This document shows positions 47,355-52,863 of a stretch of 64,000 nucleotides of DNA, piece by piece; position 1 is the stretch's first letter; each line of letters starts with the position of its first letter. The notes beneath the pieces are model-generated. The model saw only the letters and a program-made list of their open reading frames with translations, made no database searches and was not told the origin of the DNA. This DNA is from Amycolatopsis umgeniensis (GTDB lineage Bacteria > Actinomycetota > Actinomycetes > Mycobacteriales > Pseudonocardiaceae), in NCBI RefSeq assembly GCF_014205155.1, contig NZ_JACHMX010000001.1, positions 6,200,001 through 6,264,000 on the forward strand, in the 5' to 3' direction. The position numbers and the translations under genes were made by a program.

Positions 47355-48114
47355 GCCGCTGCTGAAGGCCGTCGGCGTCCGCAAGAGCTACGGCCACACG
47401 GAGGTGCTGGGCGGCATCGACCTCGAAGTCCACAAAGGACAGGTGGTCTGCCTGCTCGGCCCGTCGGGCGCCGGGAAGAGCACCTTCCTGCGCTGTGTCA
47501 ACCATCTGGAGGCGATCGACGCCGGACAGGTCTGGGTCGACGGCGAGCCGATCGGGTTCCGCCTGAAGAACGGGAAGCTGTACGAACTGAAGGAACGCGA
47601 GGTCGCCCGGCAGCGGCGCGACATCGGCATGGTGTTCCAGCGGTTCAACCTGTTCGGCCACCGGACGGCGGTGCAGAACGTCGTCGAGGGGCCGGTGCGG
47701 GTGCTCGGGCTGAATCCCGAGGAGGCCCGCGTCCAAGCGCTCGATCTGCTCGACAGGGTCGGTCTCGCGCATCGGGCCGACGCCTATCCGGCGCAGCTTT
47801 CGGGCGGACAGCAGCAACGGGTCGCGATCGCCCGGTCGCTCGCGATGAAACCGAAGCTGATGCTGTTCGACGAGCCGACGTCGGCGCTCGACCCGGAACT
47901 CGTGGGCGAGGTGCTGGCGGTGATGGGTACGTTGGCCGCGGAGGGGATGACGATGGTCGTGGTGACGCACGAGATGGGGTTCGCGGCCGAGGCCGCCGAC
48001 GAGGTGGTGTTCATGGCCGACGGCGTGGTCGTCGAGACCGGTCCGCCGGGGGAGATCCTGAGCTCGCCGAAACACGAGCGGACCAAGCAGTTCCTGGCAC
48101 GGGTCCTCGCATGA
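47347..48114 (+). CDS. Amino-acid ABC transporter ATP-binding protein
   Basis: 255 residues from GTG 47347 (AGGA 6 nt upstream; GTG 47341 is possible). Walker [11 protein letters not shown]-loop VFQRFNLF, signature LSGGQQQR, Walker [14 protein letters not shown] and H-loop VVVTHE are all intact. It matches the GlnQ/HisP class. The start lies inside the permease end, and the stop overlaps the aminotransferase-YheO gene by ATGA. Confidence 0.93.
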
Positions 48115-49838
48115 CGCGGATCTCGCCGCGGTACCTGCTGCAGTTCGACGAACCGGCCGGGTACCTCGACTTCGCCCGGTTCGGCCCGCCGTCGCACGCC
48201 GTGCTCGACACGACGGCGAGCCTGCTCGACGCCTCGACCAAGGCCGGTCCGTCCACTGTGGACGACCTGATGCGCCAGGAGACCCGGGCCAAGGCCGCCG
48301 CGGCACGGCTTTCCGGCAGCGACACCGACCACACGGTGCTGTTGCCGCACACCAGTCTCGGGTTGTTCCAGGCCGCGTTCAACGCGCCGCGGGGCGAGGC
48401 GCTGGTCTCGGCGTCGGAGTTCCCGGCCAACACGTACCCGTGGGCGCGGGCCGAACAAGCGGGCAGGCTGACCGTGCGGCGGCTGCCGCTGGGGAACGTC
48501 ACGGCGGACGCGGTCAAGGCGGCGCTGACCCCGGAGACGTCGCTGGTCAGCGTGAGCGCCGTCGACTTCCGCACCGGGTATCGCGCCGATCTGGCGGCGA
48601 TCCGGGAAGTGACCGGGGACAGGCTGCTCGTCGTCGACGGGATCCAGGGCTTCGGGGTGGTCGAGGCACCGTGGGAGGTCGCGGACGTGCTCGTCGTCGG
48701 CGGCCAGAAGTGGCTGCGGGCGGGCTGGGGTACCGGTTTCGCCGTCCTGTCCGACCGTGCGCTCGAGCGGATGGAGCCGATCCTGTCCGGCTGGACAGGA
48801 GCCCGTGACCCGGGCCTGTTCGACGACGAGATCCATCCGGCCGACGACACCGCCGCCGCGTGGTCGATCTCGAACCTGAGCCCGATCACCTCGGGTGCGT
48901 TCGCGGCCGCTCTGGAACTGGTCGAAGAGGCGGGTGTCGAGGCCATCGCGGGCCGCATCGCCGAACGCGTCGACGAACTCGAAGAAGCCGTGAAATCCGT
49001 GGGGGGAGAGGTGGTTTCGGCCGTCGAGCGGCGCGCCGGGATCCTCGCCTTCACCCTGCCGGGGCACGCCGCCGAGCAGGTGGGTTCCGCGCTGGCGAAC
49101 GCCGGGATCGCCGCGACCGTACGGCCGGAGCACGTCCGGCTGTCCCCGCACGCGTCGACTCCGGCGAGCACGGCGGAGCTGGTGCGCTCGGCGTTGGAGC
49201 GGCTGATGAAGCCGGTCAAGGTCTTCGAGGCGCCCGCTGTCGCGTCGGCGGGCTCGGGGGACTTGCTCACGGCGCTCGTCCCGGCGGTGCACGCGCTCGC
49301 GACGATGCTGGGACCGGGCAACGAAGTCCTGCTGCACGATCTGAGCAGGCTGCCGGACTCGATCGTCGCCATCGCGGGTGATCTCACCGGCCGGACGGTC
49401 GGCGGCCCGATGACGGATCTGCTGCTGGGACTGGTCCGCCGCGGCACCACGCAGGATCTGACGAACTACGAGACCCACGGCCCCGACGGCCGCGCGATCC
49501 GTTCCTCGACGCTGTTCCTGCGCGACGCCGACGGGATCGCGATCGGCTGCCTGTGCGTCAACCGGCTGTCCGACGGGGCGCCGAAGTCCGGCGGGCACGA
49601 GCCCGAAACCTTCCCGCCGGACGTCGACAGCCTGCAGCGGTTCCTCGTCGGACGCGCGGTCACGAAGGCCGGGATCCCGGTGGACCTGATGAAGAAGCGG
49701 CACAAGGCGGCCGTGGTCCGGGAACTGGACGAGGCGGGGTTCTTCCTCATCAAGGACTCGGTCGACCACCTCGCCGGGGAACTCGACGTCACGCGGTACA
49801 CCATCTACAACTACCTGAACGAGATCCGGGCCACGTGA
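48111..49838 (+). CDS. Fusion of class V aminotransferase with YheO/DauR-like regulator
   Basis: 575 residues from ATG 48111. Residues 1-370 are a fold-type I PLP enzyme of the class V/isopenicillin-epimerase type: Asp in VVDGIQGFG (about 175) and the PLP lysine in [16 protein letters not shown] (about 200). Residues about 385-575 are a YheO-type PAS domain ([39 protein letters not shown]) followed by its DNA-binding helix pair ([27 protein letters not shown]). The PAS/HTH module is that of DauR, a D-arginine catabolism regulator. The fusion probably senses an amino acid imported by this operon through PLP chemistry and controls transcription. Confidence 0.82.
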
Positions 49839-49851
49839 CTCGCGCGAACAA

Positions 49852-51021
49852 CTAGCGGAGGAAGGACTCCACGGCGTCGGCCGCGCGGTCGATCCCGCCG
49901 TTCCCGCGTGTCTCGGCCCGCACCTCGGCGAGGCGCGCGGCCACCGAGGGCGACCCGGAGACCCGCTCGACGGCGGCCCGCAGCGTCGAAGCCGTCACGT
50001 CCGAGGCCGCGAGTTCCTCACCGACACCCAGTTCCGCCAGTTTCGCCGCGTTGCCGAAACCGTCGGTGGCCAACGGGATCGCGACGGTCGGCACGCCGTA
50101 CCAGAGCGATTCCGTGCTGCCGCCCATGCCGGCGTGCGTGATGAACGCCGACGCGGCTTCGAGCACCGCGAGCTGCGGGACGAACGGATGTACCTCGATG
50201 TGCTCGGGGAGCGGTCCGAGGCCGGCGGGATCGGTCTGGCCGATCGAGATGACCACATGCCAGTCCGAGTCGCGGAACCCGTCCACGCACGCGCGGAACA
50301 GGTCGACCTGGTCGGTGAACGCGGTGCCGAGCGACATCAGCAGGACCTTCTTGCCGCTCGAAGGCGGCGTCCAGCTCCGATCGGCCAGCCGTTCCGGGTC
50401 CAGCGCCGGGCCGACGAACCGGACCGACGACGGCACCCGCTCGACGTTGGACTGCATCGCCCTCGGCAGCAGCGCGAGCACCTGCTCCGGGTGGGAGATC
50501 CAGTCCCAGGCGTCGGCCTCGATACCGTTCTCGTTCAGCCACCGGGTGAAAGTGGCGAAATAGTCCTTTCCGGACGGTGAGGTCCGGATCGAGGTGAGGA
50601 TCTCGGCCATGTCCTCTTCGTAGCCGTCCCAGGCGACATACGTCGGGGACAACTGCACGGCCGGAACGTCGTAGCGCCTGGCCAGAAGGGGTGCCGGGAG
50701 ACCGCCGATGTCGTACAGCAGCAGGTCCGGACGGTTCTCGTCGTAGAAATCGGTCAGCACCGGCATCGCCTGGATGCCCTCGTCGAGGAAGACCCGCATC
50801 TGCGACGCGGGATCCTCCGGCCACGCCGACTGGTCGCCGATCGGGAGGATCGAGGGATGCGAGACCACCTCGGCGCCGGTCGGCTCGATCAGCCCGGTGA
50901 GCGGTTCGCCCACGACATAGCTGACTCGATGTCCGCGTGCGACCAGCTCACGGATGACGGCCAGCGACGGGTAGATGTGGCTCGGCGCGGTGCAGCCGAT
51001 CATCGCGATGTGTTTCTGCAT
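49852..51021 (-). CDS. Macrolide-type (MGT) glycosyltransferase
   Basis: 389 residues from ATG 51021. GT-B fold of family GT1: N-terminal IAMIGCTAPSHIYPSLAVIREL with the catalytic His in GHRVSYV or SHIYPS region, and C-terminal donor site FVPQLAVLEAASAFITHAGMGGSTESLWYGVPTV in two blocks. The motif HAGMGS-like with VPxxxIPLATDGFGNA is typical of the MGT family (OleI, OleD, Mgt), which glucosylate and inactivate macrolides. The presence of a leader peptide and terminator upstream supports antibiotic-inducible expression. Confidence 0.85.
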   Translation of the reverse strand: MQKHIAMIGCTAPSHIYPSLAVIRELVARGHRVSYVVGEPLTGLIEPTGAEVVSHPSILPIGDQSAWPEDPASQMRVFLDEGIQAMPVLTDFYDENRPDLLLYDIGGLPAPLLARRYDVPAVQLSPTYVAWDGYEEDMAEILTSIRTSPSGKDYFATFTRWLNENGIEADAWDWISHPEQVLALLPRAMQSNVERVPSSVRFVGPALDPERLADRSWTPPSSGKKVLLMSLGTAFTDQVDLFRACVDGFRDSDWHVVISIGQTDPAGLGPLPEHIEVHPFVPQLAVLEAASAFITHAGMGGSTESLWYGVPTVAIPLATDGFGNAAKLAELGVGEELAASDVTASTLRAAVERVSGSPSVAARLAEVRAETRGNGGIDRAADAVESFLR

Positions 51022-51060
51022 GAGGTCCTGTCTGAGGTCGTGACGTCGGACGGCGCGCAG

Positions 51061-51089
51061 AAAAGGGGGCCTCCCGATCGCGGGGGCCC
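51061..51089 (-). terminator. Terminator/attenuator hairpin in the glycosyltransferase leader
   Basis: On the minus strand GGGCC and CCCG pair with CGGG and GGCCC across a four-base loop with one bulge (51067-51089), followed by CC and TTTT at 51064-51061. It lies between the leader peptide stop (51105) and the glycosyltransferase start (51021), the position of an attenuator. Confidence 0.65.
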
Positions 51090-51104
51090 TGCGGTCGCGC
51101 CGTC

Positions 51105-51137
51105 TCAGGCGGTGCGCATACGAACGTGGCAGATCAT
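51105..51137 (-). CDS. Putative macrolide-responsive leader peptide (MICHVRMRTA)
   Basis: A ten-codon frame from ATG 51137 to TGA 51105 encodes MICHVRMRTA. It contains an Arg-Met-Arg triplet, a +X+ motif at which macrolide-bound ribosomes are known to stall. It lies 84 bp upstream of the macrolide-type glycosyltransferase, with a terminator hairpin between. The promoter 8 bp upstream of its ATG implies a nearly leaderless transcript. It is short, so chance cannot be fully excluded, but position and motif fit translation-attenuation control. Confidence 0.6.
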   Translation of the reverse strand: MICHVRMRTA

Positions 51138-51144
51138 GATCGAC

Positions 51145-51173
51145 AGCGTAGCGCGCGCCACTCGGCGTCCCAA
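51145..51173 (-). promoter_or_regulatory. Likely sigma-70 promoter of the glycosyltransferase leader
   Basis: On the minus strand a TTGGGA element (51173-51168) and TACGCT (51150-51145) are spaced by 17 bp. The expected start of transcription is at or next to the leader-peptide ATG at 51137. An AACCGGTTAATCGGTT palindrome-like stretch just upstream could bind an activator. Confidence 0.5.
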
Positions 51174-51306
51174 CCGATTAACCGGTTGCCCGGTTTGCCG
51201 CGATCAGGACCCGCCGTTGGTAGGGACCTTCGCCGGAGGACTTCCGCGGGTCAGCGGCGTGGATAGGGTTTCGGGGCTTTCACCTTTGGAGGGAAAGGGA
51301 GAAACC

Positions 51307-52863
51307 TTGAGACGTGTTCTCATCACCGCGCTGGCCGTCGCCACGCTCGCCTCGGTCGCGGTGACCGCGCCCGCCGGCGCGGCCGAAGCGGCGCAACCCG
51401 CCGAGACCATCACCTGGGGAGCGTGCACCGACCCGACGTTGATCAACGCCGGCGCCGAGTGCGGCTTCCTGTCCGTTCCGCTCGACTACTCGAGGCCGCG
51501 CGGAGAGAAGATCCAGCTCGCGCTCAGCCGCGTCAAGCACAAGACGCCCGACGCGCAGTACCAGGGCGTCATGCTCACCAACCCCGGCGGCCCCGGCGGT
51601 TCCGGGCTGCTGCTCGCGACCCGCGGCCCGCGCGTGCCGAACCACGCCGGCGACGCCTACGACTGGGTCGGTTTCGACCCGCGCGGCGTCGGCTCCAGCA
51701 AGCCCGCGCTTTCGTGCATCCCGAACTACATGGACTACAACCGGCCGAACTACGTGCCCACGACGCGGCAACTGGAGACGACCTGGTTGCAGCGCTCGAA
51801 GTCCTACGCCGACGCGTGCGCCGAGAAGAACAGCCGCGCGCTGCTGGAGAACATCAAGACGACCGACACGGTCAAGGACATGGAGAGCATCCGCAAGGCG
51901 CTCGGCGCGGAGCAGCTGAACTTCTACGGGTACTCCTACGGCACCTATCTCGGCCAGGTCTACGGGACGCTGTTCCCGCAGCACGTCCGCCGGATGGTCC
52001 TCGATTCCACTGTGGACCCCCGCAACGTCTGGTACCAGGCCAACCTCAACCAGGATCTCGCCTACGACGTCAACCTCAACATCTGGTTCGGCTGGGTCGC
52101 CTCCCACGACGACGTCTACCACCTCGGCAAGACCCAGGCCGCGGTGAAGCAGGTCTTCGACGAGCAGTTGAAGAAGCTGGCCGCGGTCCCGGCGGGCGGC
52201 TACGTCGGACCGGACGAGTTCCTCGACGTCTTCAACCAGGCTTCCTACTACCAGCTGCGCTGGACGCTGCTCGGTGACGCGCTCGCGAAGTTCGTCAACA
52301 AGGGTGACTGGCAGACGATGAAGGGGCTGTTCGAGACCTTCGGCGGCCGCGGCGACGACAACAGCTACGCCGTCTATCTCGCCGTCCAGTGCACGGACGT
52401 GAAGTGGCCGCAGAGCTGGCAGCAGTGGAAGCACGACAACTGGCGGACCTACCGGAAGGCGCCGTACTTCACCTGGCAGAACGCTTGGTACAACGGGCCT
52501 TGCCTGTACTGGCCCGCGAAACCCGGCAAGCCGGTCAAGGTCGACGGCAAGAAGGTGCCGAGTGTGCTGATGATCGGCGAGACGCTCGACGCGGCGACAC
52601 CGTACGAAGGCAGCCTCGAAGTGCGTAGCCGGTTCCCCGGCGCTCGCTTGATCGGTGAGCCGGGCGGCACGAGCCACGCCATCACGCCGCGCGGCAACGC
52701 GTGCGTCGACAACCGGATCGCCGACTACCTGGCGACCGGCGCGCTGCCCGACCGCAAACCGGGGCGGACGGCCGACGTCGAATGCGCGCCGCTGCCGCTC
52801 CCGGTGCCACCGCCCGTACCTGCGGCCACCTCCGGCGCCGCACTCTCCCGGGTGCCCGCCTAA
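51307..52863 (+). CDS. Secreted alpha/beta hydrolase, tripeptidyl aminopeptidase type
   Basis: 518 residues from TTG 51307 (GGGAG 6 nt upstream). Sec signal peptide VLITALAVATLASVAVTAPAG. The hydrolase fold contains the oxyanion region LTNPGGPGGSGLL, WVGFDPRGVGSS, nucleophile Ser about 210 in GYSYGTYLG, Asp in GETLDAATP (about 428) and His in GGTSHAI (about 456). The C-terminal TAP-like domain identifies it with actinomycete tripeptidyl aminopeptidases (Tap/SlpD/SlpE), which cleave N-terminal tripeptides. A Pro-rich tail ends the protein. It is followed by a 57-nt palindromic terminator. Confidence 0.9.
   Translation: MRRVLITALAVATLASVAVTAPAGAAEAAQPAETITWGACTDPTLINAGAECGFLSVPLDYSRPRGEKIQLALSRVKHKTPDAQYQGVMLTNPGGPGGSGLLLATRGPRVPNHAGDAYDWVGFDPRGVGSSKPALSCIPNYMDYNRPNYVPTTRQLETTWLQRSKSYADACAEKNSRALLENIKTTDTVKDMESIRKALGAEQLNFYGYSYGTYLGQVYGTLFPQHVRRMVLDSTVDPRNVWYQANLNQDLAYDVNLNIWFGWVASHDDVYHLGKTQAAVKQVFDEQLKKLAAVPAGGYVGPDEFLDVFNQASYYQLRWTLLGDALAKFVNKGDWQTMKGLFETFGGRGDDNSYAVYLAVQCTDVKWPQSWQQWKHDNWRTYRKAPYFTWQNAWYNGPCLYWPAKPGKPVKVDGKKVPSVLMIGETLDAATPYEGSLEVRSRFPGARLIGEPGGTSHAITPRGNACVDNRIADYLATGALPDRKPGRTADVECAPLPLPVPPPVPAATSGAALSRVPA

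Follow-up and report, generated by a model that had tools for sequence, protein, structure and literature searches.

A conserved Arg-x-Arg leader peptide precedes a macrolide-family glycosyltransferase gene in Amycolatopsis and may form part of a macrolide-responsive switch

A glycosyltransferase gene in the window analyzed here (a stretch of 64,000 nucleotides from Amycolatopsis umgeniensis) is preceded by a very short open reading frame (ORF) and by RNA hairpins (Table 1). The encoded enzyme scored 355.8 bits against TIGR01426 (macrolide family glycosyltransferase), passing the cut-off of 260 bits, and 402.6 bits against NF033129 (macrolide-inactivating Mgt), not reaching the cut-off of 700 bits. 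Among proteins of solved structure, oleandomycin glycosyltransferases are its best relatives (E 1.8e-100). Macrolide inactivation is read here from family membership, with no assignment as Mgt, and from the same TIGR01426 membership we infer that the enzyme gives resistance. It is probably an intrinsic, macrolide-inactivating glycosyltransferase. Homologs were found by protein search in all 80 Amycolatopsis genomes, and close orthologs, defined by E 2e-155 or better and at least 59% identity, in 55 of them; the glycosyltransferases of the named Amycolatopsis loci are 91-95% identical to that of the window.

Downstream of the gene, a convergent ORF ends at 49838. This ORF (48111-49838, plus strand) combines an aminotransferase class-V domain, a YheO-like PAS domain and an HTH domain. 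Upstream lies a divergent alpha/beta hydrolase gene, which begins at about 51307 (the start codon was chosen by us). Between the hydrolase and the glycosyltransferase, the minus strand reads TTGGGA-17-TACGCT-7-ATG, followed by the ORF MICHVRMRTA. A preliminary description of this DNA had proposed a macrolide-sensing attenuation leader made up of a promoter, a ten-residue peptide with Arg-Met-Arg, a terminator hairpin with TTTT and the glycosyltransferase; the promoter, peptide, hairpin with TTTT and gene are all present, on the minus strand. Membership of a WhiB7-type promoter family and an outer helix starting immediately after the stop codon are features beyond that description. A search of the window with Rfam at the gathering threshold matched only a tRNA elsewhere and no family at the leader.

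Table 1. Features of the glycosyltransferase locus, in the order of transcription (positions in the window)
Feature	Position	Strand	Remark
AT-rich box TTAATC	51176..51181	-	3 bp upstream of TGGGAC; diverged WblC/WhiB7 box GAAAWY
-35 TTGGGA	51168..51173	-	17-nt spacer to -10; overlapping -35 reading TGGGAC
-10 TACGCT (TANNNT)	51145..51150	-	7 nt before leader ATG at 51137
Leaderless (by sequence) ten-codon ORF MICHVRMRTA-stop	51105..51137	-	ATG 116 nt before glycosyltransferase start
P1 5' arm GACGGCGCG	51096..51104	-	directly 3' of stop codon; pairs with 51057-51049
P2 hairpin GGGCC-CCCG/CGGG-GGCCC	51067..51089	-	enclosed by P1; terminator of the preliminary description
T4 run after P2	51061..51064	-	TTTT
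P1 3' arm CGCGCCGTC	51049..51057	-	alternative pairing toward glycosyltransferase start possible
P3 weak hairpin	51025..51051	-	overlaps P1 3' arm and Shine-Dalgarno AGGA (51029-51026)
Macrolide-family glycosyltransferase, 389 aa	49852..51021	-	ATG at 51021

Conservation of the peptide in relatives had been suggested as a check on the preliminary reading, and it was borne out: an Arg-x-Arg leader was present in 51 of the 55 Amycolatopsis genomes with a close ortholog (upstream DNA of all 55 was taken), with both Arg residues fixed. The leader was also present in both Sphaerisporangium loci found (L041 and L042), and none was seen in three Rhodococcus loci. Of the other four Amycolatopsis genomes, one had a decayed leader (L014, MIRRIRVHTL, with R-V-H at codons 6-8) and three had none (L026, L074 and L075). 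The aligned set comprised 52 loci with leader and hairpins, 50 from Amycolatopsis and two from Sphaerisporangium. Eleven loci (L031-L040 and L046) were left out as exact duplicates of other genomes, and L129 as a chance match to the leader pattern. The single leader of 11 aa (L053) stood outside the codon and parsimony counts, a locus that had lost its hairpins (L062) outside the structure counts, and L014 outside the row set and hence outside both the structure counts and the 53 promoters.

Leader length was ten residues in 51 of the 52 aligned loci and eleven in L053. In every one of the 51 ten-residue leaders, codons 6 and 8 encoded Arg, through CGC, CGG or CGT at the former and CGC or CGG at the latter. 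Parsimony on the enzyme-gene tree gave seven codon changes and no amino-acid change at codon 6, and for codons 2-5, 7, 9 and 10 the number of amino-acid changes ranged from 6 to 15 per codon; at codon 8 there was one codon change and no amino-acid change, which is too little DNA variation to say much alone. Because Arg6 is fixed despite silent changes while other codons vary, we conclude from these substitution patterns that selection is acting on the peptide, centered on Arg6 and Arg8. The gap between Arg8 and the stop codon was exactly two codons in all 51 leaders, so that the distance from a stall to P1 would be fixed. Within the window's own genome, the pattern TANNNT-7-ATG-N12-CGN-N3-CGN had five matches, against three for a reversed-pattern control; the other four were rejected as candidates and open longer ORFs (44 to over 180 codons).

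Loss of the leader or its hairpins took several forms. In L026 both are gone, and a similar-looking promoter reads straight into the glycosyltransferase start, giving a natural leader-less derivative. P1, P2 and Arg8 are all lost in L014 (R-V-H), a joint loss that favors a link between peptide and hairpins; L062, which has lost P1 and P2 and retained R-I-R, counts against it.

The leader had been called nearly leaderless, and this description agrees with its relatives: TANNNT stood 6-8 nt 5' of the leader start in all 53 leader loci (44 at 7, seven at 8 and two at 6). For WblC promoters, the available sections of one study give the consensus GAAAWY, 3 bp, TKGMNN, 16-19 bp, TANNNT, with transcription mostly beginning 7 or 8 bp past the -10 (PMC7157823). 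As the -10 ends 7 nt before the ATG, transcription is predicted to start at the leader ATG or the adjoining base. The window's promoter matched 7 of 10 scored positions of GAAAWY-N3-TKGM (TTAATC-GGT-TGGGAC), with 6-7 in its close clade. Full scores of 10 were obtained for 15 of the 53 leader loci and scores of at least 9 for 23, and a score of at least 9 was reached by 2 of 1060 shuffles. A scan of 50500-52800 for E. coli-type promoters found none. In addition, a WhiB-family protein in the same genome (L152) carries the AT-hook-like stretch RPRGRPRK, and an AT-hook is a mark of WhiB7. Together, the 15 full matches, the window's 7 of 10 and the AT-hook WhiB make WhiB7 control likely for the promoters of the leader family and plausible for that of the window.

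Similarity to known WblC/WhiB7 promoters lies in the layout of box, N3, -35 and -10 and in a transcription start 7-8 bp after the -10 (PMC7157823 and PMC10727445, in part). In the accessible sections of the same two reports, WblC/WhiB7 regulons and the whiB7 uORF are described at the promoter level, and no drug-specific leader ORF on a glycosyltransferase was seen. Three macrolide-family glycosyltransferase loci (L043, L117 and L130) have no leader ORF and carry a WblC-type promoter 6-7 nt before an in-frame enzyme start.

Comparison of the aligned loci also supports the RNA structure. Over the 52 sequences, 97.3% of 778 cells in P1/P2 could pair, compared with a mean of 92.3% for shuffles and 27-57% for slid alignments; for P1 itself the figure was 99.3%. 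Two-sided changes occurred in 6 of 15 P1/P2 pairs (two of the eight counted in P1 and four of the seven in P2), a number equalled by 2 of 500 shuffles, in statistics that ignore relatedness and with four P1 pairs invariant. Covariation events were few by parsimony, pair 44/122 having changed once and pair 39/127 five times, and further pair types were no more numerous than in shuffles, 325 of 500 of which reached the observed number. P1 and P2 together had a mean z of -4.0 relative to shuffles over the 52 loci; a fold of the 168-nt stretch had no extra stability (z 0.23). A covariance model of the structure, R1, matched once per genome in 51 of the 80 Amycolatopsis genomes, always at the coordinates of the glycosyltransferase; its weakest match (E 0.002, in G019) was to L062, which has no hairpins. 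In 394 genomes of the class, under stricter filters by which weak matches may be lost, R1 matched its own locus and three others at E 0.006-0.009, which we took as chance. As judged by alignment, a predicted P1 that begins immediately after the stop codon and encloses P2 is conserved ahead of the glycosyltransferase.

The Arg codons of the window's leader occupy the register of ErmDL, Arg6-x7-Arg8, and in the predicted stall the P site would be occupied by Met7 and the A site by the Arg8 codon. According to the sections available of a study of ErmDL (PMC8298421), the telithromycin-arrested ribosome has Leu7 in its P site and Arg8 in its A site, erythromycin acts at the same motif, and Ala at either Arg abolishes telithromycin stalling. 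The same sections report that erythromycin arrest has no strict need for +X+ and that altered sequence 5' of +X+ can abolish arrest (PMC8298421). Since upstream context can have this effect, a +X+ motif by itself is no proof of stalling. Both systems have Arg6-x7-Arg8 at equal codons and a resistance-type gene next, and ErmDL, MTHSMRLR, resembles the leader MTYFMRLRSH of L020 and L021 (PMC8298421, in part). Unlike ErmDL as described there, the window's leader appears leaderless by sequence, has ten codons, belongs to high-GC actinobacteria and to a WhiB7-type promoter family, is followed by a gene for a drug-modifying enzyme instead of an rRNA methylase gene, and has an arrest that is predicted.

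Other leaders provide more distant parallels, again from partial texts. Like the proposed leader, MsrDL (MYLIFM) of msrD is a tiny peptide that responds to macrolides and lies ahead of a resistance gene, but it differs from the window's leader in stalling at the stop codon, in lacking +X+ and in acting with an intrinsic terminator (PMC10314930). As proposed here, Streptomyces uORFs of lmrC, tiaA and are5sc mediate ribosome-dependent attenuation of actinobacterial antibiotic resistance genes; these, however, are ABC-F genes induced by lincosamide, streptogramin A or pleuromutilin, and the leaders of are5sc (MLV) and tiaA (MVGDDDISG) showed no erythromycin stalling (PMC8546547 and PMC12421871).

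Of the preliminary claim of a macrolide-sensing attenuation leader, one part stands: comparison gives good support to a stalling leader upstream of a macrolide-family glycosyltransferase, through fixed length, a covarying hairpin, placement in the ErmDL register, R6-x-R8 with silent changes and R1 in 51 of 80 genomes. On these comparisons, we regard the conserved leader of the +X+ arrest kind as real; its sequence indicates a leaderless start, and its promoter family is of the WhiB7 type. That it senses macrolides is likely. A stall-type peptide together with a conserved RNA hairpin before the gene makes it probable that the glycosyltransferase gene is switched on by the drug itself. That a macrolide- or ketolide-inducible leader governs it by translational attenuation is a proposal to which we give slightly better than even chances, its leader and stall part being much more secure than the masking and expression step.

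Under translational attenuation, general ribosome stress would raise WhiB7, which would aid firing of the promoter. Macrolide- or ketolide-bound ribosomes would arrest as they do on ErmDL, codon 7 occupying the P site and codon 8 the A site. The front of such a ribosome would come to rest near the stop codon, at the base of P1, and P1 could still form; the 3' arm of P1 would then be unable to pair toward the Shine-Dalgarno sequence and start codon, and the enzyme would be made. Ribosomes reaching the stop codon would cover the 5' arm, P1 would be blocked and the start site would be masked, following the logic of ErmC and ErmD.

Constrained folding was assessed by measures for P1 and for pairing of its 3' arm to the start (3:4), each a sum of pair probabilities over nominal length that can exceed 1. 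With nt 1 to stop-1 blocked, a rough equivalent of the codon-7 stall, the P1 measure was 0.77, 0.56, 0.60 and 0.86 in four clades (that of the window first) and the arm-to-start measure 0.51, 0.69, 0.61 and 0.20 in the same order. With nt 1 to stop+10 blocked, representing a ribosome on the stop codon, P1 was 0 and the arm-to-start measure 1.48, 1.25, 1.23 and 1.11, or 1.8 to 5.6 times higher. The presence of P1 in the stall and its absence at the stop argue for the translational model. For the window, formation of P1 reduced the computed cost of opening the start site from 6.3 to 1.8 kcal/mol; over the 52 loci, P1 lowered this cost by more than 2 kcal/mol in 18 and raised it in 15.

MsrDL toeprints, in the accessible portion of that study, fall 15-17 nt past the first base of the P site (PMC10314930); by that measure, a ribosome stalled at codon 7 would reach to roughly nt 33-35. 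Our confidence in the model is reduced by this estimate, because computed P1 is already dropping there: in the window's clade the measure was 0.77 with nt 1-32 blocked and 0.27 with nt 1-34 blocked, and the latter constraint gave 0.48, 0.20 and 0.85 in the other three clades. Free RNA already showed substantial P1 formation in three of the clades (0.71, 0.55 and 0.83), against 0.26 in the fourth. In a first fold test, P1 did not rise on stalling (0.42 stalled versus 0.58 in free RNA). The duplex of the P1 3' arm with the start did not exceed the background given by the gene's own coding windows (below 5% in none of 52 loci), and neither did the 1:2 pairing exceed coding-sequence background (one of 52). 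P3 had p <0.05 in 18 of 52, with a mean z of -1.8 in the window's clade and 0.0 for the window's own copy. Folding support is therefore mixed, and translational attenuation is the favored step from stall to expression.

Alternatively, P2 and its T-run might end transcription unless a stalled ribosome gives read-through, as for msrD. This is an unlikely reading with some points to its credit. T-runs are possibly less important in high-GC bacteria, the P2 hairpin is very stable as well as conserved, and the window does have TTTT. Terminator-type attenuation is known, moreover, for Streptomyces lmrC (PMC8546547) and macrolide-induced msrD (PMC10314930), as given in the sections available. However, a T-run of at least four after P2 was found in 9 of 18 close relatives and in 0 of 34 others, a simple terminator scan (which needs 5 T in 8) did not list P2, and no alternative helix undoing P2 was seen in the folds inspected. 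A codon-7 stall would end near nt 33-35, short of the 5' arm of P2 at nt 49, and the ribosome would not touch the hairpin. With the T-run unconserved and the stalled ribosome off P2, the terminator model fares no better than the translational one, and we do not take a T-run terminator to be the main switch, because the T-run is not conserved. The transcription terminator was thus the weak element of the preliminary description, the hairpin being conserved and the T-run not.

Stability of the mRNA offers another, quite improbable, explanation. Protection of erm mRNAs by stalled ribosomes is known, and a ribosome stalled here would occupy about nt 1-34 of the transcript; it might shield the 5' end of the leaderless mRNA, with P1/P2 as a stability element. 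This reading would leave unexplained why P1 follows the stop codon immediately and keeps a constant spacing from Arg8. Least probable of all is a leader that senses a non-macrolide signal (arginine shortage or general slow translation) or whose peptide itself acts: it has two Arg codons and a promoter type that answers many translation inhibitors (PMC7157823, in part), but the sole fixed residues are the two Arg, in +X+ spacing and ErmDL register, the downstream gene belongs to a macrolide enzyme family, the variation at seven other post-start positions speaks against a peptide product, and an arginine sensor was set aside because just two Arg are fixed.

If control by this leader is as proposed, drug-specific leader control, known for erm and ABC-F genes, would extend to a drug-modifying enzyme in environmental actinobacteria, and would act on a leaderless mRNA with the arrest register of ErmDL. 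As a target of a +X+ leader, a macrolide glycosyltransferase gene seems to be of a new type. Full-text searches of open PMC papers, a collection outside which most subscription papers lie, turned up no account of a macrolide glycosyltransferase under leader-peptide control. No such leader is described in the sections available of PMC8298421, PMC7157823, PMC4921905, PMC10727445 and PMC12121999, nor in those of PMC8546547, PMC12421871, PMC8657839, PMC10219788 and PMC10314930. The 52 aligned loci amount to natural variants of one +X+ leader, with seven variable positions around a constant Arg6 and Arg8, and offer a set for comparing which Arg-x-Arg contexts might stall.

A second class of leader was detected in other actinobacteria. 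The search of the class yielded 65 matches, of which 50 were taken as loci (L001 and L091-L139; L100 and L101 had just 103 and 131 nt of upstream DNA). In 19 of the 49 more distant homolog loci (L091-L139), a different leaderless peptide with an end of about Q-I-Y-G-stop was present. Peptides of this class, found in part of L104-L134, include MHLQIYG, MYLQQIYG, MSSFLQIYG, MNFLQIYG and MAFQQLYE; they have 7-9 aa and mostly end in Q-[IL]-Y-[GE]-stop. MsrDL is closer in form to these leaders than to that of the window (PMC10314930, in part). A WblC-type promoter score of at least 8 was obtained for 14 of 21 loci (the 19 and the related L050 and L077), compared with 1 of 420 shuffles. The pattern CAGATCTACGGCTRR had 27 matches in 26 of the 394 class genomes, 14 ending in a stop codon and the other 13 reading TGG. 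All but one (L177) of the 14 stop-ended matches precede macrolide-family glycosyltransferase genes, 11 of these 13 by coordinates and two (L170 and L173) before apparently damaged gene copies.

This second class would represent a new arrest sequence. With it, a more general arrangement may be considered, in which actinobacterial macrolide glycosyltransferases use a two-input gate that joins a WhiB7-type promoter to a leaderless arrest peptide, the transcript starting at the leader ATG and at least two unrelated peptides having been fitted to it (R-x-R in Amycolatopsis and Q-I-Y-G-stop in other genera). We regard the chances for and against this arrangement as evenly balanced. In such a gate, the promoter would answer general ribosome stress and the arrest peptide, at the very 5' end, would report the drug itself.

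Two further leaderless short ORFs before distant homologs, MSAFLVFYL in L077 and VIQTPLYL in L050, end in Tyr-Leu and perhaps represent a third leader type.
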